Origin: Candidatus Venteria ishoeyi
GTDB taxonomy: Bacteria > Pseudomonadota > Gammaproteobacteria > Beggiatoales > Beggiatoaceae
Assembly: GCF_030378065.1 (NCBI RefSeq)
Contig: NZ_JAUCGJ010000002.1
Coordinates: forward strand, 62,001 to 126,000
Length of the DNA: 64,000 nucleotides
Direction: 5' to 3'
A program made the position numbers and the translations under genes. Below, piece by piece: positions 4,862 through 61,474 of this stretch. Each line of letters opens with the position of its first letter. Within the stretch, counting starts at the first letter, position 1. Below the pieces are notes generated by a model that did not search any database, was not told where the DNA came from, and worked only from the letters and a program-made list of their open reading frames with translations.

Positions 4862-5087
4862 GATAAACACTCCCTGTTAAAACAAGGTTTTACGTCCCCG
4901 TTACAGCGAAACAATCATTATCCCTGCTTATTTAAGTATAGTCTGATTATTTAACTATGCTCTGATAAATTAACACTTGTGTATTTGCTATTGATTACTG
5001 AATCAGGCATATTTATTCAGCTTATTTAACCCGAATTCGACATAAGGCTTTTTCTATTTATAACGAATTCTGTTGATCCTTTGTTTT

Positions 5088-17755: not shown

Positions 17756-20700
17756 ATGAATCTATTGCCTAAAAGAATTAAATATCAGCTCCTGACCCTT
17801 TGGCTGGCATCTATCATGCTGGTGTTGATGCTGGTCGGCGGCTTATTTTCCTGGCTGTTTTCAGGTATGCAGGAAGAGAGTGCAATTTTTGATATGGAAG
17901 CAACATTCCATATTCTGCAAAATGAGTTGACCAGTCGTCTTGAGGCCTTGCAAAAAAGCACTACCTATCTGGCAGCGCAGGAAGAACTTATTGCCACCGC
18001 TCATCTAATCGATAAGTTTCAGGATCGTGTAAACTATCAGCCACTGATTTTTGATGAAGAAAAGCGCAAACTGGCAACCCACTTGTCCCAATACCTTATG
18101 GCCAGCAAGGTAGATGGACTGATTATCCACGACAGCTCTCTTGTTCCAGCAGCCTTCAGTCTGTATCAAGGTCGGGAGAAGGGGTATTTATCCTATAATG
18201 AGGGCAAGCCAGTACCCCGTATTGATGTACTCGGAAATGAAACATTCCAGCCGATAAAAGCCATTCCTGACAGGCTGAAAACGACCCGCCCCGACATCAG
18301 CCGCCAGGGTCAATGGCTTGTCGGTCATCAGCCATACCTCTCCATCACCTACACCCAGCCCTTGCTGAGTAAGCCTTCTCAAGGGATACAGCAAATCGGT
18401 CTGATCACCGCTTCCATAATTCTGGATGATGTCTTCATGGCGTATATTACCGCAAATTCCAACCTGCATTTTGCTCTGAGTCTGGATGGTAAAACCTGGC
18501 ATGGTAAAACCTGGCGTGGTGATGCTGCTTATGAGAAAACCATGCGTAAGCGCATCCAACACTGGAACATCGAACATAAACACAGCAAACATGATAACGC
18601 CAAACATAGCCATGAGGAAAAACTGTCGCTACGGATACATAATAATTCTAGCACTCATACGCTGCAACTGGCCCCCGTGCAATATCTCTTTAGTGCCGAG
18701 CATTTTGTTGGTAAAACCTATTTGACCCTGCCCGGTGGCATTCGCATATTTGTACTCCTGGCAGAACACCAAAATCCACTATTTACCGTGCTGAATACTT
18801 ATCAACGCGCCATTTACTGGCTACTGGCAATTGCCGCATTGCTATTTATTCCTGCCGGAATTCTACTGTTAAATCAGATTATTAGCAGACCCCTGGAACA
18901 ACTCAGTGTCGGTGTATCTAACTTCAAAGCGGGTAATTTCAAGAAACTGACAGGCTTTGCTGAGGGCAGCGAAACGGCTGAACTGGCCCATGCATTCAAT
19001 GATATGGCACACGATGCCCTTAGCCGTGAAGTTGAACTGACAACACTGTCACGCCAGCATGAGCAGGCCAGACTCCACTTGGAACAAGTCATCAGCAACA
19101 CCAACGTAGGTATCTGGGACTGGAGGGTGCAAAGCGGTAAAGTCGTATTCAATGAACGCTGGGCGGAGATCATTGGTTACAGTCTGGCAGAACTGGCCCC
19201 CGTCAGCATTAAGACCTGGATGATGCATGTGCACCCTGACGATCTGGAGGACTCGAATAAGGCATTAAATGCGTATTGGAATGGTGAGCGCAAAAGTTAT
19301 CAGTATGAGTCACGCATGCGTCACAAACAAGGACATTGGGTGTGGGTGCTGGACAGTGGTCGAACCGTGGAATGGGATGCTGATGGCAAGCCCCTGCGCA
19401 TGATTGGCACTCACTTTAACATCACTGAACGCAAACAGACCGAAATGATGATACGAAAAAGCGAGGACAGGTTCAGGGCTTTGATCGAATCGACTGCGGA
19501 CTGGATTTGGGAACTTGACCCTCAAGGTAATTTTACCTTCACCAGCCCCCGGGTGTACGATATTCTTGGCTACAGCCCGGAAGAAATTGTCGGTAAAAAG
19601 AGCAGTTTTGATCTAATGCCAATGGATAAGGCTGAAAAAGTACGTTCTGAATTTAAGGTGTTAATGGCAAAAAGAGAGCCTTTTAATAATTTGATTAATC
19701 TAAATCTCCACAAAAATGGTCAGCAGGTGATCCTGGAATCCAGTGGCCGTCCTTTTTTTGATGATGCGGGTAAACTTCTTGGCTATCGCGGTATTGACAG
19801 AGATATCACTGCACGCAAACAGGCTGAGGCTGAGTTGAAGCAACATGTCCAGGAATTGAAACAAGCTCGCAAGGCCACTCTCAATATGATGGAAGATGCC
19901 GATGTGGCTCGGCAAAGGCTCAGTACCAGCGAAAAGAACTTTCGCAGTTTTTTCGAAACCATGGACGACATGATTATTATCACCGACCAGCAAGGTGCGT
20001 TGTTGTTCACCAATGACGCGGTAATACAGACGCTGGGCTATTCTCCTGAAACACTCAAGACCATGCATATCCTGGATTTGCATCCTGCGGATAAACGCCG
20101 AGAAGCCGAGGTAATATTTCACAAAATGCTTACAGGCCAGATTAGCAACTACCCATTGCCACTGGAAACCCAGAACAGTCAACAGGTACCGGTGGAAACT
20201 CGGGTATGGTTCGGTGAATGGGATGGCAAAGCCTGTGTTTTCGGCCTGATCAAAGATATCACCGAACGCAGAAAAGCTGAAAAAGCATTGCTGGAAGCCA
20301 AAGAGGCCGCTGAACAGGCCAGTCGCGTCAAATCTGAATTTCTTGCCAACATGAGCCATGAAATCCGCACCCCGCTCAATGCGGTGACCGGAATGGCCTA
20401 TCTGCTCCAGCAAACCTCTTTAGGTGATAAGCAAGAGGCGTATGTCGATAGTATCCAACGCGCCATGAATCATGTCATTAGCCTGATCAACGATCTTCTG
20501 GACTTCTCCAAAATGGAAGCTGGCAAGCTGGAATTGGAATCGGTGTCTTTTGAACTGAATCAGATTCTGGATAAACTTTATGACTTTGTGGTACCGATGG
20601 CTGAACACAAGTCACTGGAAGTACTGTTCAAGGTCTCGGCAGCAGTACCCTATGCCTTGATAGGCGATCCCACACGCCTGGGTCAGATTTTGATCAACCT

Positions 20701-22495
20701 GGCTGGCAATGCAGTCAAATTCTGTGATACGGGCGAGGTGGTTATTGCCATTGCAGTGGAGCGCAGGGAGGATAACAGCGTATTACTGCGCTTTAGCGTC
20801 TGCGATACTGGTATTGGCATGAGCAAATCTCAGTTGGAACGACTGTTCGAGGCATTTCAACAAGGTGACAGCAGCACCACCCGCCGCTACGGTGGCACCG
20901 GCCTGGGTCTGGCTATCAGTCGCTATCTGGTGGAGCAAATGAATGGAGAGATTGGAGTCGAGAGTGTATTGGGAGAGGGTAGTGAGTTCCATTTCACAGT
21001 ATTACTTGACGTACAACCAGGGGCGCAGCCCAATCTTTTCAAGGTACCGAAGAAACTGCGCAGTACGCATTTTCTGGTGGTTGATGATAATAGTACTTCA
21101 CGTGAGATAATAAAGGAAATTCTGCACACTTTGGAATTTAAATGTACCACGGTGGCTTCTGGCCGGGAGGCCATTGCTGAGCTGAAACGAAGCTACCATG
21201 TGGAACAGCAGTGCTATGACATTATTCTGCTGGATTGGCAGATGCCGGAAATGGATGGTATCGAGACCGCTAAACGCATCAACACCGACCCGATGCTACC
21301 CGAGCCACCAAAAATTCTCATGATCAGTGCTTTTGCCGAGGCGCAGGTGATGCCGCAGGCGCAACAGGCTGGTATATCAGCTTATCTGCATAAACCAATT
21401 AATCCTGCTACACTGTTTAACAGCATTATGCGTCTGCTGGATCAGGATGTCGCCAAGGCTCGACAGTACAAGCCCAGCCCTGAACCTTCATTACCCCGGT
21501 TCAAAACCAGTACAGGACATATCCTGGTCGTGGAGGATCAGCCAATCAACCGTCAAATTGCCAGTGAAATTTTAGAGCATAATGGTTTCACGGTAGAAAC
21601 GACAGAAAATGGGAAATTGGCAGTGCAACGTTTGCAACGAGACCCAAAAAGCATCAACTTGATATTAATGGATGTACAAATGCCGGTAATGGATGGCTAC
21701 GAAGCCACCCGGCGTATTCGCCACCTGCCAGGTTGCGCCGAAATCCCCATTATTGCCATGACGGCCCATGCTATCAGGGAGGAGCGTGAGAAATGTCATG
21801 AAGCCGGGATGAACAGCCATGTTTCCAAACCGGTGGATGTCAATCAACTCCTTACTGAACTAACTCATTGGCTACACCTGGAACCTACTAATAAGGCGCA
21901 AAAATCAGCCATTACTGATGCCGGGTTACCTGCATCCGTGCCTGGTATCAACTTGACTGATGGCCTTGCCCGGGTCATGGGTAATCACAAACTCTATACA
22001 CAGTTGTTACGAGATTTCTCCGAGCAATCCCGTCCATTGCTGGAGCAACTGCACAACGATACAGTGACAAATGCTGCCGCAACGGCTCATATCCTGGCAG
22101 GCAGTGGTGGCAACCTGGGTATGATCGCATTGCGTAAATCAGCCAAGGCACTGCAACAGATTTTAGAAAGCGGCGGAAATACTGAGGAAGCCTTACAGCA
22201 ACTTGAGTACTGCTTTGCTGAGGTTGTGAGTTCTATTGATAGCCTTGATTTAGTATCATCCCAGGTTAACGAGTCCAACAGATCAGGTGGTGAAAGTCTG
22301 CGCCAGATTGCACCACAACTAGAAAAACTTGCTGACCTGCTGATTGCCAATGATATGGATGCCGCTATGCTGTGTGAACGCACCCTGACCACCCTGGACA
22401 CAGATAGCGCTAAAGTGCTGCAACCGGTAAACAAGCACATCGCTGCACTGGATTACGTGCAGGCACTACGCCTGTTACAACAAATTATGAATTAA
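17756..22495 (+). CDS. Membrane hybrid histidine kinase: periplasmic sensor, HAMP, 3 PAS, HisKA, HATPase, 2 REC, HPt
   Basis: 1579 residues. TM1 about 15-36; a large periplasmic region to about 345 of the double-CACHE kind; TM2 about 352-374; HAMP; PAS domains near 440-565, 570-690 and 715-830; phospho-acceptor SHEIRTPLN with His near 867; HATPase with NLAGNAVKF, DTGIGM and GGTGLGL (about 1047); receivers with VVDDN...LLDWQMP (Asp near 1158) and VVEDQ...LMDVQMP (Asp near 1305); and a C-terminal HPt with AHILAGSGGNLG (His near 1444). The periplasmic part has six His within residues 269-286. The HPt lacks the Lys usually found in AHxLKG. Closely related in its transmitter half to the 27020 kinase. 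Likely feeds the soluble receivers encoded next. Confidence 0.93.
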   Translation: MNLLPKRIKYQLLTLWLASIMLVLMLVGGLFSWLFSGMQEESAIFDMEATFHILQNELTSRLEALQKSTTYLAAQEELIATAHLIDKFQDRVNYQPLIFDEEKRKLATHLSQYLMASKVDGLIIHDSSLVPAAFSLYQGREKGYLSYNEGKPVPRIDVLGNETFQPIKAIPDRLKTTRPDISRQGQWLVGHQPYLSITYTQPLLSKPSQGIQQIGLITASIILDDVFMAYITANSNLHFALSLDGKTWHGKTWRGDAAYEKTMRKRIQHWNIEHKHSKHDNAKHSHEEKLSLRIHNNSSTHTLQLAPVQYLFSAEHFVGKTYLTLPGGIRIFVLLAEHQNPLFTVLNTYQRAIYWLLAIAALLFIPAGILLLNQIISRPLEQLSVGVSNFKAGNFKKLTGFAEGSETAELAHAFNDMAHDALSREVELTTLSRQHEQARLHLEQVISNTNVGIWDWRVQSGKVVFNERWAEIIGYSLAELAPVSIKTWMMHVHPDDLEDSNKALNAYWNGERKSYQYESRMRHKQGHWVWVLDSGRTVEWDADGKPLRMIGTHFNITERKQTEMMIRKSEDRFRALIESTADWIWELDPQGNFTFTSPRVYDILGYSPEEIVGKKSSFDLMPMDKAEKVRSEFKVLMAKREPFNNLINLNLHKNGQQVILESSGRPFFDDAGKLLGYRGIDRDITARKQAEAELKQHVQELKQARKATLNMMEDADVARQRLSTSEKNFRSFFETMDDMIIITDQQGALLFTNDAVIQTLGYSPETLKTMHILDLHPADKRREAEVIFHKMLTGQISNYPLPLETQNSQQVPVETRVWFGEWDGKACVFGLIKDITERRKAEKALLEAKEAAEQASRVKSEFLANMSHEIRTPLNAVTGMAYLLQQTSLGDKQEAYVDSIQRAMNHVISLINDLLDFSKMEAGKLELESVSFELNQILDKLYDFVVPMAEHKSLEVLFKVSAAVPYALIGDPTRLGQILINLAGNAVKFCDTGEVVIAIAVERREDNSVLLRFSVCDTGIGMSKSQLERLFEAFQQGDSSTTRRYGGTGLGLAISRYLVEQMNGEIGVESVLGEGSEFHFTVLLDVQPGAQPNLFKVPKKLRSTHFLVVDDNSTSREIIKEILHTLEFKCTTVASGREAIAELKRSYHVEQQCYDIILLDWQMPEMDGIETAKRINTDPMLPEPPKILMISAFAEAQVMPQAQQAGISAYLHKPINPATLFNSIMRLLDQDVAKARQYKPSPEPSLPRFKTSTGHILVVEDQPINRQIASEILEHNGFTVETTENGKLAVQRLQRDPKSINLILMDVQMPVMDGYEATRRIRHLPGCAEIPIIAMTAHAIREEREKCHEAGMNSHVSKPVDVNQLLTELTHWLHLEPTNKAQKSAITDAGLPASVPGINLTDGLARVMGNHKLYTQLLRDFSEQSRPLLEQLHNDTVTNAAATAHILAGSGGNLGMIALRKSAKALQQILESGGNTEEALQQLEYCFAEVVSSIDSLDLVSSQVNESNRSGGESLRQIAPQLEKLADLLIANDMDAAMLCERTLTTLDTDSAKVLQPVNKHIAALDYVQALRLLQQIMN

Positions 22496-22504
22496 GGCAT
22501 TAGT

Positions 22505-24268
22505 ATGTCAGAACAAGCACAAAAACCCACCGTGCTGGTAGTCGATGATGCTCCAGATGGTATCCATATTCTTAACCAGATCCTGGCTGACAAGTACCAG
22601 GTGATATTTGCCACCAACGGTTCTAAGGCCCTGTCCATCGTCCATGCACAGCGACCAGAGGTGATCTTGCTGGATATTTTCATGCCCGGCATGAATGGCT
22701 ATGAAGTATGCCATGAGCTGAAGGCTGACGCGGCAACGCGGGATATCCCGGTAATCTTTATCAGTGCCGAGCAGGGCATGGAAAATAAGATGGAGGCATT
22801 CCAGGCCGGTGGTGTTGATTATGTCACCAAACCGTTTCAGGCCACTGAGATCTTGGCTCGCGTTAATGTGCAGTTGGCTCTGGCGCAGGCGAAACAACAG
22901 GCAGAAGTTGCTAACCATGCCAAAAGTGCTTTCCTCGCTAATATGAGTCATGAACTGCGCACACCGCTCAATGCAATACTTGGCTTTGCACAAATATTGG
23001 AACGAGATGATAGTCTGGCGGACAAGCATAAACGAGAAATACGATTAATTCGACGTGGTGGTGATTATCTGCTGACTTTGATTAATGATATTCTGGATTT
23101 GGCAAAAATCGAAGCGGGTCGTTTTGAACTCCTTCCCTGCACCTGGAATACACAAAGTTTTTTTCAGGAATTAAGCTACATGTTTAAAATCCGTGCAGAA
23201 CAAAAGGATATCCTGTTCCGCTATGAAAATTCCATCCCCTTGCCCCAATACCTTTATTGTGATGATAAGCGCCTGCGTCAAATCCTGATGAACTTAGTGG
23301 GAAATGCGGTGAAATTTACCGAACGCGGCAGCATTACTTTGCGCACCACTTTCGAGGCAGGCCAGTTGATTCTGGATGTAATAGATACGGGTGTTGGTAT
23401 CGCGCCAGAGCAACACGACAAGATATTCGAAGCTTTCAGCCAAACCGGGGAAGATCACCATAAACGACAAGGCACGGGGCTGGGACTATCCATATCCCGT
23501 GCGCTGGTGGAAGCGATGGAGGGGAGCTTGAGTCTCACCAGTACACCCGGCATAGGCAGCACCTTTTGCGCCAAGATTCCAGTAGAAGTAATTTCCACGC
23601 ATGCCGAGGCTATAGACAACACGGAGACAGGCCGTGTCATCAGCTATCAGCGCACGCACGGTGAAGGTAAGCTGCGCATTTTGGTGGTTGATGATGTGGC
23701 GGATAATCGTGAAGTATTGCGTGGTTTATTGGAACCGTTGGCATTTGCTATTGAAGAAGCAGGCAATGGTCAACGCTGTCTGGAAATTGTCCAGCAATGG
23801 CAACCGGATCTGATACTGCTGGACTTGCGTATGCCGGAGATGGATGGTCTGGAAGCAACCCGTGCCCTGCGCGCGCTGCCGTTGGAAATACCGATTGTTG
23901 CAGTGACCGCCCGTGCTTTTGAAGAGGATCGAGAGCAAAGTCGACGCGCTGGGTGTAATGCTCACCTTATCAAGCCGTTGCGCTTGGACAAATTGCTCGC
24001 CACATTAGCTCGCTTACTTCCCCTTGAATGGTGTTATAGCGAGGTAGTAACGGATACGGAAGAACCTGAGCAAAGCTTAAATGAAAGTCAACTGATGCAA
24101 ATTGATACTGCAATAAAAAAAGGTGACATCATGACTATTATTGAATTTGCAGAGGCGCTGGTGCAAGACGGTTGCTGCCCTAGAACTGCCAAACAGATTC
24201 TGAATTTGGCAGAGGATTTAGATATTGCCAAACTAAAACGCCTGATGGAAACATTGCGAACAGGCTAA
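22505..24268 (+). CDS. Soluble REC-HisKA-HATPase-REC hybrid kinase
   Basis: 587 residues, no membrane segment. N-terminal receiver with VVDDAPDGIHILNQ and phospho-acceptor Asp57 (LLDIFMP), HisKA with SHELRTPLN (His149), HATPase with NLVGNAVKF, DTGVGIAP and GTGLGLSIS (about 324), second receiver with VVDDVADNREV and LLDLRMPEMDG (Asp near 440), then a short helical tail. Begins 9 bases after the membrane hybrid, so they are probably co-transcribed. The N-terminal receiver is the natural target for the HPt of that kinase; the second receiver could be autophosphorylated. No DNA-binding domain, so output is by phosphotransfer. Confidence 0.92.
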   Translation: MSEQAQKPTVLVVDDAPDGIHILNQILADKYQVIFATNGSKALSIVHAQRPEVILLDIFMPGMNGYEVCHELKADAATRDIPVIFISAEQGMENKMEAFQAGGVDYVTKPFQATEILARVNVQLALAQAKQQAEVANHAKSAFLANMSHELRTPLNAILGFAQILERDDSLADKHKREIRLIRRGGDYLLTLINDILDLAKIEAGRFELLPCTWNTQSFFQELSYMFKIRAEQKDILFRYENSIPLPQYLYCDDKRLRQILMNLVGNAVKFTERGSITLRTTFEAGQLILDVIDTGVGIAPEQHDKIFEAFSQTGEDHHKRQGTGLGLSISRALVEAMEGSLSLTSTPGIGSTFCAKIPVEVISTHAEAIDNTETGRVISYQRTHGEGKLRILVVDDVADNREVLRGLLEPLAFAIEEAGNGQRCLEIVQQWQPDLILLDLRMPEMDGLEATRALRALPLEIPIVAVTARAFEEDREQSRRAGCNAHLIKPLRLDKLLATLARLLPLEWCYSEVVTDTEEPEQSLNESQLMQIDTAIKKGDIMTIIEFAEALVQDGCCPRTAKQILNLAEDLDIAKLKRLMETLRTG

Positions 24269-24289
24269 GGAATGGGAATTAAATAACTT

Positions 24290-24399
24290 ACGCAGTTGGC
24301 GCAGGATTTTTATTCGTATTCTCAAGGCGCGAAAACAGGCGCATAGCAAGCTATGTAACGGTTTTCACAACACAGAAAATGGAGAAAAAAAACAGCCAA
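24290..24399 (+). repeat. Family M MITE-like core, diverged (copy D)
   Basis: GCGCAGGATTTTTATTC, the hairpin GCGCATAGCAAGCTATG flanked by AAAACAG and GGTTTTC, and AGAAAATGGAGAAAAA are all preserved; outer ends are lost. Where other copies read GCCAAGTTGCTGAAGTT this copy reads GCCAAATGACTGAAACCTT, which is the beginning of the 14-bp repeat carrying the downstream start codons. GGAG at 24381 is then the ribosome-binding site available to them. Confidence 0.8.
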
Positions 24400-24441
24400 A
24401 TGACTGAAACCTTATGACTGAAACCTTATGACTGAATCATT
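24400..24441 (+). promoter_or_regulatory. 14-bp tandem repeat with two coupled minicistrons before the GGDEF-EAL gene
   Basis: ATGACTGAAACCTT is repeated at 24400 and 24414, and the third unit at 24428 begins the real gene (ATGACTGAATCATT). Because the unit is 14 bases, each of the first two ATGs reads MTETL and stops at TGA inside the next ATGA (24400-24417 and 24414-24431). Ribosomes entering at the first ATG would therefore have to terminate and restart twice. Copy-number change by slippage would keep this logic. Confidence 0.7.
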
Positions 24442-26125
24442 GGATAAACCTACTGTACTGATAGTAGATGATCTGCCTGATGGTATCCAGGTACTGAACC
24501 AAATCCTGGCTGATGAATATCGGGTATTGTTTGCTACTAACGGCCAAACAGCCCTGACTATCACCCGTGAACAAAAGCCGCAAGTCATCCTGCTGGATGT
24601 GATGATGCCGGATATGGATGGGTATCAGGTCTGTCGCGAGCTGAAAGCAAACCCTGAAACCCGGAATATTCCGATTATCTTTATCACCGGTAAGGATCAA
24701 GATGAAGATGAGGAGATGGGATTTCGTATCGGTGCCGCAGATTATCTGACCAAACCGGTGCGCCCGACCACAGTCAGGGTGCGAGTCAAAAACCAGTTAC
24801 AGCTACGTCGCAGTGAAGAATTAATTCTGCGTCAGGCTTTGTATGACGGACTGACAGGATTACCAAACCGTAGTCTGGCCATGGATCGACTGCGTTATGC
24901 CATACTCCAGGAACAACGCGAGTATACCAAAACCGGGCTGTTATTTATTGATCTGGACAATTTTAAAACCATTAACGATACCCTGGGTCATGATGCAGGT
25001 GATCAGGTGTTGGTTGATGCGGCAAAACGTCTGCGACAATGTATCCGTAAAGGTGATACGGTGGCACGTCTGGGGGGGGATGAATTTGTTATTATCCTGC
25101 CCAGACTGAAACAGGTCAATGATAGCATACCGGTTGCAGAACAGATTTTGAGAAGTTTCACTCAACCGATGCCAATAGCGGGGATGGATTATGTCATCAG
25201 CACCAGTATCGGCATTGCTATCAGCCCTGACGATAGTAATGATTACAAACAGTTATTGGTGAATGCCGATACCGCCATGTATCAATCCAAAAATGCCGGC
25301 AGGAACAATTATCATCTCTTTAATGAAAAAATGAATCAGCATGTGAACCGGCGCATGCAAATGGAAACACACTTACATGGTGCATTGGAACGGGGGGAGT
25401 TGCTGATCTATTATCAGCCGATTGTGGATGTGCTCAGCAACCAGGTGATTGGGGCTGAGGCGCTATTACGCTGGAACAGCCCTCAATTGGGATGGGTATC
25501 CCCCGAAGCGTTTATTGATATTGCCGAGCAAACCGGACTGATTGGGCCTATTGGTGCCTTTGTACTGGAGCAGGGTTGTCGGCAGTTTTGGAATTTGCGA
25601 AGGGCAGATGGACGGTTGCTGTCATTGGCAGTGAATGTTTCACCACAACAGTTCCGGCGTGAGGATTTGACGCAACAGGTAAAGAAAGTGTTGCAAATGA
25701 CCGGAATGCAACCAGGAAACCTCAAATTGGAAGTGACGGAAGGACTATTGCTGGGGAATCAGGATTGTATTAAAGACGCACTGCAAACCTTACATGAAAT
25801 GAATATCCGTCTGTCTATGGATGACTTTGGCACCGGTTACTCATCACTCAGTTATCTGCGAAATTTTGCTTTTGATCTGGTTAAGATCGACCGTTCTTTT
25901 ATAAAGGAAATAACTCAGCGTCCAGATGACGAAGCCTTAGTCACGGCAGCTATCGCCATGGCTCATGGTCTTGGCCTTGAGGTCATTGCCGAAGGTGTTG
26001 AAACACAAGAGCAGATGGCGCTACTGACAAGTAAAGCCTGTGATCAGATTCAGGGGTATTTATTTGCCGAACCGATGCCGTTTGATAATTTTGTCACATG
26101 GTTGAAAGAAAAGGAGTCGCTATAG
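24428..26125 (+). CDS. REC-GGDEF-EAL cyclic-di-GMP synthase/phosphodiesterase
   Basis: 565 residues, cytoplasmic. Receiver with VDDLPDG and Asp57 (LLDVMMP); GGDEF domain with LGGDEF near residue 217 and an RKGD inhibitory (RxxD) site just before it; EAL domain with GAEALLRW (about 344), NVSPQQF, LEVTEG, MDDFGTGYSS, VKIDRSF and EGVETQEQ. All catalytic signatures of both halves are present, so both cyclase and phosphodiesterase activity are possible, gated by receiver phosphorylation. The receiver is a close paralogue of the N-terminal receiver of the 22505 kinase. Translation start is embedded in a 14-bp tandem repeat. Confidence 0.94.
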   Translation: MTESLDKPTVLIVDDLPDGIQVLNQILADEYRVLFATNGQTALTITREQKPQVILLDVMMPDMDGYQVCRELKANPETRNIPIIFITGKDQDEDEEMGFRIGAADYLTKPVRPTTVRVRVKNQLQLRRSEELILRQALYDGLTGLPNRSLAMDRLRYAILQEQREYTKTGLLFIDLDNFKTINDTLGHDAGDQVLVDAAKRLRQCIRKGDTVARLGGDEFVIILPRLKQVNDSIPVAEQILRSFTQPMPIAGMDYVISTSIGIAISPDDSNDYKQLLVNADTAMYQSKNAGRNNYHLFNEKMNQHVNRRMQMETHLHGALERGELLIYYQPIVDVLSNQVIGAEALLRWNSPQLGWVSPEAFIDIAEQTGLIGPIGAFVLEQGCRQFWNLRRADGRLLSLAVNVSPQQFRREDLTQQVKKVLQMTGMQPGNLKLEVTEGLLLGNQDCIKDALQTLHEMNIRLSMDDFGTGYSSLSYLRNFAFDLVKIDRSFIKEITQRPDDEALVTAAIAMAHGLGLEVIAEGVETQEQMALLTSKACDQIQGYLFAEPMPFDNFVTWLKEKESL

Positions 26126-26147: not shown

Positions 26148-26200
26148 AGGAGTGAGAATTTTATAACTTCAGAATCTGGACTTATTTCATCCTCATTCCT
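26148..26200 (-). repeat. Family M, minimal copy with both ends (copy E)
   Basis: 53 bases: AGGAGTGAGAATTTTATAAC at the left and TTATTTCATCCTCATTCCT at the right with almost no interior. It separates the GGDEF-EAL gene from the SBP-like gene. Confidence 0.75.
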
Positions 26201-54570: not shown

Positions 54571-55296
54571 ATGTTGAAACAACTTCTCCAAGGCTTTATC
54601 GACAGTAGCCGTGACTTATTACCTATCGTATTGGTTATTGCTTTTTTCCAATTGGTTGTTTTACAGCAGCCTTTACCGGATTTAGGTAATTTGCTGGGCG
54701 GTATGCTGTTGGTGGTGGCAGGATTAACCTTATTTGTTCGTGGCCTTGAAAAAGGTTTGTTCCCAATTGGTGAGAGCATGGCTTATGCCTTTGTGCGCAA
54801 AGGGAATCTGTGGAGTTTGCTGACCTTTGCATTTGCCTTGGGGTTTGGTACGACAGTGGCGGAACCTGCGTTGATAGCAGTATCCGGGGAAGCAGCAGAA
54901 GTGGCTGCTGCGGGCAATGTGATTGAAAACAGTGCCGCTTCCCAGAAATCTTATGCTAATGGTTTACGTCTGACGGTTGCGCTTTCAGTGGGTTTTGCCG
55001 TGTTATTAGGGGTTTTTCGTATCCTTAAAGGCTGGCCGATTCATTATCTGATTATCAGTGGTTATATTGGCGTGGTGCTCATGACTGGCATTGCACCTGA
55101 CTGGATTATCGGTATTGCTTATGACTCTGGCGGCGTCACCACGTCAACGATTACCGTGCCGCTGGTGACAGCCCTAGGTGTTGGACTGGCTTCCAGTATT
55201 AAAGGGCGCAATCCAATGATTGATGGGTTTGGTTTAATTGCTTTTGCCTCTTTAACCCCCATGATCTTTGTCATGTTATATGGTGTATTGTATTAA
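54571..55296 (+). CDS. DUF1538 integral membrane protein
   Basis: 241 residues, about seven hydrophobic segments. Typical DUF1538 sequence: [51 protein letters not shown] and [18 protein letters not shown]. The family is a presumed transporter of unknown substrate; it often occurs as two adjacent genes with a PII-like regulator, of which only one gene is present here. Its stop codon touches the first base of family M copy G. Confidence 0.85.
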
Positions 55297-55455
55297 GGAG
55301 TGAGGATGAAATAAATGCAGAAACTGGGCGCAGGATTTTTATTCATTTTCAAGGCGTGAAAACAGGCACATAGCAAGCTATGTAACTGTTTTCACAACGC
55401 AGAAAATGGAGGAAAAGACCAGCCAAGTTGCTGAAGTTATAAAATTCTCACTCCT
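55296..55455 (+). repeat. Family M MITE-like element, full copy G (160 bp)
   Basis: Inverted ends AGGAGTGAG and CTCACTCCT. The centre forms a long hairpin: GTGAAAACAG and CTGTTTTCAC flank ACATAG-CAAG-CTATGT. No transposase frame. The left end carries AAGGAGTGAGGATG, a good ribosome-binding site with an ATG; the right end with following bases CTAAGGAG supplies one for the next gene. Confidence 0.92.
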
Positions 55456-55471
55456 AAGGAGCTTATATAAA

Positions 55472-55834
55472 ATGAACCGTAAAGATATCAGTGAAGAAAA
55501 GTATTTTCTGGAATTAAATTGTAAGCTATGTAATGCCCTGCACGAAAAAATGATGCCAAAGTCCACGCAAAAAGATGCGTATTATCAGGATATTAAAAAG
55601 CTTAGAGAAAAAGAAAAGCAGCAATTGCAAGCTTTGATTCAGGAAGGGCAGGAAAAGTTGACACTATTTATTGAAAGCTGTGCGAAAAATCACCGAATAC
55701 TGGCTGAAAAATATGGTGGTAAAATTTCCAAAGAAGTCTCTGATAAATATGATCAAGGCTGGTTAAAGCGTATTGATGATACGGCTAAACAAATTGAAAA
55801 TTTATCACATTTGTTGGAAGAAGCTAAGGAGTGA
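55472..55834 (+). CDS. Small helical hypothetical protein bracketed by two family M copies
   Basis: 120 residues from the ATG at 55472 (AAGGAG 11 bases upstream, at the end of copy G; upstream in-frame codons lie inside the repeat). Mostly helical and charged, coiled-coil-like in KKLREKEKQQLQALIQEGQE and at the C-terminus; Cys at three places (LNCKLCNAL, ESCAKN). Its last codons AAG GAG TGA are the first bases of copy H. AT-richer than the neighbours. I do not recognise the family. Confidence 0.65.
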   Translation: MNRKDISEEKYFLELNCKLCNALHEKMMPKSTQKDAYYQDIKKLREKEKQQLQALIQEGQEKLTLFIESCAKNHRILAEKYGGKISKEVSDKYDQGWLKRIDDTAKQIENLSHLLEEAKE

Positions 55835-55986
55835 GGATAAAATAAATACAGAAACTGGGCGCAGGATTTTTATTCATTTTCAAGGCGTGAAAACAGGCGC
55901 ATAGCAAGCTATGTAACTGTTTTCGGAACGCAGAAAATGGAGAAAAAGACCAGCCAGGTTGCTGAAGTTATAAAATTCTCGCTCCT
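55827..55986 (+). repeat. Family M MITE-like element, full copy H (160 bp)
   Basis: Same orientation and length as copy G, with inverted ends AGGAGTGAG and CTCGCTCCT and the central hairpin GCGCATAGCAAGCTATG. It overlaps the stop codon of the 120-residue gene. The rest of the gap to argC contains only family P copy 3. Confidence 0.92.
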
Positions 55987-56034
55987 AAGTAATCTGAGTT
56001 CGATGTAAGCTTTATTCAGCACTTATAATATTGA

Positions 56035-59825: not shown

Positions 59826-59868
59826 TATAGTTTCCTTTCCTCAGACATGACTTTGAAACTTGGCGCTA

Positions 59869-59925
59869 AGGAGCAAGAATTTTATAACACCAGAAATCTA
59901 GCTGGCTTTTTTTCCATTTTCTGCA
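59869..59925 (-). repeat. Family M truncated copy next to copy I
   Basis: AGGAGCAAGAATTTTATAAC, AGCTGGCTTTTTTTCCATTTTCTGC: the first third of the element, joined directly to the full copy that follows. Confidence 0.75.
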
Positions 59926-59928
59926 CTT

Positions 59929-60088
59929 AGGAGTGAGAATTTTATAACTTCAGCAACTTGGCTGGTCTTTTTCTCCATTTTCTACGTTGTGAAAACAGTT
60001 ACATAGCTTGCTATGCGCCTGTTTTCACGCCTTGAAAATGAATAAAAATCCTGCGCCCAGTTTCTGTATTTATTTCATCCTCACTCCT
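59929..60088 (-). repeat. Family M MITE-like element, full copy I (160 bp)
   Basis: Exactly the length of copies G and H but inverted. Ends AGGAGTGAG and CTCACTCCT, central hairpin GTGAAAACAG...CTGTTTTCAC around ACATAGCTTGCTATG. It lies between the 115-residue gene and the phosphatase gene, ten bases from the phosphatase stop. Confidence 0.92.
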
Positions 60089-60097
60089 TATCTTATC

Positions 60098-61318: not shown

Positions 61319-61474
61319 TTAAAATTGATAGCTTAATTGCATATTCAGAGCTGCGCGCTGATCGCCATTGCTTGCAAAAACCTGCACATAGCTCAACAAG
61401 GTTGTAGTAAAAGTTGTAGTGAAAGTTGTAGTGAAAGTTGTTAATAAAAAATTTAATTGCTTATTGTTAGACAT
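61319..61474 (-). pseudogene. Remnant of an outer-membrane protein gene with 12-bp repeats
   Basis: A 51-codon frame with a good ribosome-binding site (AAGGAAC, 8 bases before the ATG). It reads MSNNKQLNFLL, then Thr/Phe repeats (TTFTTTFTTT), and ends ALNMQLSYQF, the aromatic-terminated last strand of a beta-barrel. The beginning looks like a cut signal sequence and the middle is gone, so a larger porin-like gene was probably collapsed by deletion. Its stop is 12 bases before the phosphatase start, so it may now act as a leader. Confidence 0.45.
61401..61440. repeat. 12-bp tandem repeat
   Basis: GTTGTAGTGAAA occurs three times with one variant base (first unit GTTGTAGTAAAA) and a partial fourth. 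The unit is a multiple of three, so gain or loss would not change frame in the 51-codon reading frame. Confidence 0.9.

Follow-up and report, generated by a model that had tools for sequence, protein, structure and literature searches.

The RR-GGDEF-EAL gene of Candidatus Venteria ishoeyi is preceded by a leader that consists of a MITE remnant and by two extra copies of the 14 bases with which the gene itself begins. Each extra copy opens a five-codon reading frame whose stop overlaps the start codon that follows. The explanation that we consider most likely is a MITE-derived leader combined with a recent tandem duplication of the start, translation being affected modestly if at all. Positions given below are those of the window, the whole stretch of 64,000 nucleotides that was analysed, unless another locus is named. 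The features concerned are as follows.

17756-22495, plus strand: hybrid histidine kinase with PAS, HAMP, two receiver and one Hpt domains, the first gene of the run (open reading frame and Pfam)
22505-24268, plus strand: HK2, a histidine kinase with two receiver domains, directly upstream of the RR-GGDEF-EAL gene (open reading frame and Pfam)
24266-24268, plus strand: TAA, which is the stop codon of HK2 and also the target trinucleotide on the left flank of MITE copy D
24269-24399, plus strand: MITE copy D, left end GGAATGGGAATTAAATAACTTACGC intact, right end gone, with similarity perhaps reaching 24408
24379-24417, plus strand: 12-codon frame MEKKNSQMTETL-stop, with its own ATG inside the MITE, sharing its frame with minicistron 1
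24381-24384, plus strand: SD-like GGAG carried by the MITE, 15 nt before the ATG at 24400 and 43 nt before the ATG at 24428
24400-24413, plus strand: unit 1, ATGACTGAAACCTT
24400-24417, plus strand: minicistron 1, MTETL-stop, with its TGA (24415-24417) within the ATGA at 24414
24414-24427, plus strand: unit 2, the same sequence as unit 1
24414-24431, plus strand: minicistron 2, MTETL-stop, with its TGA (24429-24431) within the ATGA at 24428
24428-24441, plus strand: unit 3, ATGACTGAATCATT, the first 14 bases of the RR-GGDEF-EAL gene
24428-26125, plus strand: RR-GGDEF-EAL gene, 565 aa (Pfam receiver, GGDEF and EAL)
26149-26199, plus strand: 51-bp MITE derivative, internally deleted with both ends kept, 23 bp past the RR-GGDEF-EAL stop codon

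The RR-GGDEF-EAL gene and its ortholog

The first-pass annotation had called the gene a c-di-GMP enzyme, and this agrees with the Pfam assignments and with the translation, in which the GGDEF motif, the EAL signature and, five residues ahead of the former, an RxxD inhibitory site are all legible. Because these signatures can be read, the protein looks catalytically intact. The gene has no ATG earlier than that at 24428, the frame being closed upstream by a TGA at 24419-24421, and a receiver domain that starts at residue 10 of the protein fits this start. From the end of HK2 to the gene the distance is 159 nt.

The nearest and only close ortholog was found in genome G013 (64% identity), and searches of the contigs of named relatives returned distant GGDEF-EAL paralogs only. 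In G013 the kinase gene and the GGDEF-EAL gene overlap by 16 nt, with neither the MITE nor the array between them, and the upstream kinase gene, as judged by eye, seems to be of a different type from HK2, with an Hpt-like end. Restart drops steeply with distance, gaps of 38 nt reducing or abolishing it in E. coli (PMC10666635), and the 159-nt gap should therefore have broken any coupling of the kind suggested by the G013 arrangement.

A MITE remnant as leader

The proposal that the leader is a MITE remnant was borne out. Copy D is 82% identical to a full MITE copy over 24266-24408, its similarity stopping at about 24399-24408, and the MITE core gave 236 matches genome-wide at up to 3 mismatches, compared with 0 for a reversed control pattern. 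The family thus consists of numerous short, nearly identical copies that carry no coding gene (consensus 158 bp). Full copies measure 158 bp between their target site duplications and have the inverted-repeat ends GGAGTGAG...CTCACTCC, and in the sampled DNA the same 3 bp stood on both flanks in all 36 of them (TTA in 18, TAA in 17 and ATA in 1), so that full copies carry both the terminal inverted repeats and the target site duplications of a MITE. Copies related to these were also found in two further genera of the same bacterial family (G009 and G014). Six of the 36 full copies in the sampled DNA lie on stop codons, and copy D does likewise; given TAA or TTA as target, insertion on a stop codon can be harmless. 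Copy D's own target duplication is not visible, its right end being gone. It is a member of an older subfamily of the MITE, and its nearest sister is L145 (G000:C9), with 89% identity over 124 nt and the left end GGAATGGGAATTAAATAACTT in common.

Other members of the family were seen in the window. Full copies, flanked by duplications of a TAA or TTA target, lie at 55294-55458, 55825-55989 and 59926-60090, the last adjoined by a partial copy at 59866-59924, and adjacent frames appear to end at the TAA of the copies at 55294 and 55825.

The missing right end of copy D, together with a right-end-like piece past the gene, raised the idea that the gene had been inverted between two MITE pieces, and this was rejected, as the piece in question is a MITE copy with both ends in place that has lost internal sequence. 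A sigma-70-like promoter was sought in the MITE and not found, and a structured RNA leader was set aside, the fold z-score being -0.97, with no Rfam family over the cut-off near the locus.

Tandem duplication of the gene start

Unit 3 agrees with units 1 and 2 at 12 of its 14 positions. The perfect repeat tract runs from 24400 to 24436 (37 bp, 2.6 copies of the 14-bp unit; TRF score 74), and its 23 matched bases running at one period are far above chance. According to the first-pass annotation the units continued out of the MITE, a view that we abandoned: local alignments of the unit with the main MITE consensus, with the sister L145 and with the reverse complement of the left end of copy D were no better than those of shuffled sequences (fractions 0.27, 0.42 and 0.83). 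Because the units match the gene start so closely and the MITE right ends no better than shuffles, units 1 and 2 are, to judge by their sequence, copies of the gene's own start. Literature searches on tandem start duplications turned up nothing comparable. Two further short tandem arrays lie in the window at 61401-61441 (12 bp x 3.4) and 4924-4974 (19 bp x 2.7).

The overlapping MTETL minicistrons that end inside the next ATGA, as described earlier, can be read directly from the sequence, and at both of them (ATGA at 24414 and at 24428) stop and start overlap in the manner of termination-reinitiation coupling. It follows from arithmetic that any unit beginning with ATGA closes its five-codon frame on the next start if the period is 2 mod 3. 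With an ATGA start and a period of 14, overlapping minicistrons therefore arise automatically with every added unit, and the layout is not by itself proof of design or of selection for stop-restart. In an 864-kb sample of the genome, 276 of the 572 ATG-started genes begin with ATGA. The main frame is kept at any unit number.

A second array at trmD

Three ATGAs spaced by 14 were found by pattern search at three places in the whole genome, one of which is the start of trmD.

G000:C17:9317-9348, minus strand: trmD array (locus L165), ATGAATTTTGCCAG twice and then ATGAATTTTGGGGTT, a tandem repeat at the trmD start

An assembly error in the 37-bp tract at the RR-GGDEF-EAL gene is conceivable, but it is made less likely by this second array of the same kind. 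The trmD frame (758-1525 on the minus strand of L165) lies downstream of the array; TrmD was confirmed by NCBIfam, and the neighbours, read by eye, form a rpsP-rimM-trmD-rplS-like run. The architecture is that of the RR-GGDEF-EAL array, with two identical units followed by a diverged third that is the real start, but at trmD the frame is open throughout the array, with an upstream TTG, and the two units have little in common beyond ATGA and the 14-base period. Among 22 readable family members the trmD array is unique to this genome, being absent from the 21 relatives. The third place (C48) was discarded as an array, as it is a chance spacing with no tandem repeat, and three-copy ATGA patterns with a period of 11 or 17 were absent from the genome. 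Of all ATGA sites in the 864-kb sample 4.3% are candidate gene starts, a share that rises to about a quarter if just the non-coding and start sites are counted; that both arrays stand at gene starts is a suggestive, not a strong, excess over random placement.

Heptamer arrays, among them (ATGATTA)n and (ATGAAAA)n, are numerous in four genomes of the same family (G017, G051, G007 and G054), and in G017 the three-ATGA pattern gave 809 matches versus 57 for the control.

Ribosome entry and the possible effect of the array

The GGAG of the MITE is the sole strong SD-like site ahead of the RR-GGDEF-EAL gene. The calculated anti-SD duplex energy was -6.4 kcal/mol before the ATG at 24400 and -0.9 before those at 24414 and 24428, and the ATG of the 12-codon frame is preceded by a duplex of just -2.9, with no SD of note. 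With the GGAG, the one strong site, placed ahead of the first ATG, a relay in which ribosomes enter at 24400 and restart twice is plausible. In reporters, ATGA overlaps couple translation (PMC6728339) and the last 15 nt of the upstream frame are enough for coupling (PMC10666635), data which make the hops of such a relay plausible, and coupling from HK2 over the 159-nt MITE gap implausible. In E. coli, an SD was needed for efficient restart in four of five tested pairs (PMC6728339).

We favour the following course of events. The TAA that stops HK2 would have received a MITE, which would then have lost its right end and come to serve as the leader of the RR-GGDEF-EAL gene, 159 nt now separating that gene from HK2. 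Two rounds of tandem duplication of the gene's opening 14 bases would have followed. Some ribosomes may now enter at the ATG at 24400, aided by the MITE-borne GGAG, and proceed by termination-reinitiation, and others may start straight at 24428. Each added unit would mean one more restart step, probably at a modest loss of expression, and output should therefore fall with unit number. Against this stand the spacing of 15 nt between the GGAG and the ATG at 24400, which exceeds the usual SD spacing, the lack of an SD within the units, and the absence of the array from G013, the one true ortholog. To this full account, with relay and direct starts side by side and a modest loss per unit, we give somewhat less than an even chance; the function of the array is probably either weak attenuation or near-neutral.

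The chief competing reading is that the array is a neutral by-product, the gene starting at 24428 without help from an SD and the minicistrons being hardly translated. In a sample of 635 genes from this genome the median anti-SD energy was -3.9, with 48% of genes at -4 kcal/mol or better and 52% weaker, figures that are rough in that start codons were chosen mechanically. With 52% of sampled genes lacking a strong SD, initiation at a weak SD such as that of 24428 would be ordinary and a relay not needed, and the claim that translation of the gene depends on two stop-restart events was accordingly not upheld. The frequency of ATGA starts, from which a duplication with a period of 2 mod 3 yields the observed layout, also fits a neutral origin, as does the failure of either array to be conserved, the one in the ortholog and the other in the 21 relatives. 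The presence of two independent three-unit arrays of the same period exactly at starts fits it less well, being more than random placement among ATGA sites would give, although this excess is weak if non-coding and start sites alone are counted. We regard neutrality as a serious possibility, if a minority one.

It seems unlikely that the array is an adaptive rheostat, in which slippage would shift the unit number among cells or strains and so tune the c-di-GMP enzyme. Units 1 and 2 are identical and the adjoining MITE has diverged, which probably means that the latest duplication postdates the insertion or that the array undergoes turnover; the insensitivity of the main frame to unit number and the existence of the trmD array are likewise in keeping with a rheostat. 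However, 2.6 copies of a 14-bp unit make a short tract for slippage, and trmD, as a housekeeping gene, does not suggest a switch. We consider it very improbable that an RNA-binding regulator recognises the repeats, as has been proposed for the TAACTGA heptamers of marine Beggiatoaceae: direct repeats beside start codons are known in that family (PMC4679880) and the sampled DNA of this genome has one TAACTGA doublet, but the unit here is not TAACTGA, and ATGAATTTTGCCAG shares so little with it beyond ATGA that no common binding sequence is evident.

Comparison with known systems

As in ATGA termination-reinitiation coupling (PMC6728339, PMC10666635), stop and start share an ATGA, and short upstream frames suffice for coupling in reporters; unlike in that system, two serial five-codon duplicates of the start here take the place of a real upstream gene. 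The axe-txe mini-ORF (PMC8708949), for which distance and frame matter, and the iraD uORF (PMC5574718) are likewise very short frames ahead of a gene that affect its translation, but they are single frames with experimental proof, whereas ours are two identical tandem frames known from sequence alone.

The TAACTGA repeats of Beggiatoaceae (PMC4679880) resemble our array in being short direct repeats immediately 5' of start codons, mostly without an SD. They have a period of 7 and one fixed sequence genome-wide, in contrast to the period of 14, the copying of the gene's own start and the ATG in every unit seen here, and the TAACTGA sites of the window are single and lie elsewhere. At locus L234 (12578-12591) a TAACTGA doublet followed by near-copies represents the repeat type described for marine Beggiatoaceae. 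The MITEs of Ca. Thiomargarita nelsonii (PMC4853749) are also short non-coding inverted-repeat elements with hundreds of copies, often beside genes; the family here is distinguished by its length of 158 bp and its 3-bp TTA/TAA target duplications.

Implications

It is conceivable, though we think it rather unlikely, that the copying of a gene start into a chain of ATGA-linked minicistrons makes a stepwise attenuator of translation, employed at two or more genes of this genome (the RR-GGDEF-EAL gene and trmD), and that the number of units sets the output. Since their units have hardly more in common than ATGA and the period of 14 bases, the two arrays form a clean test pair. Should the relay fail, they would serve as a warning that duplication of an ATGA start at a period of 2 mod 3 automatically gives overlapping minicistrons. 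If the relay works, output would drop at each added stop-restart junction, and a single tandem start duplication would offer bacteria an easy mutational path to graded control of translation.
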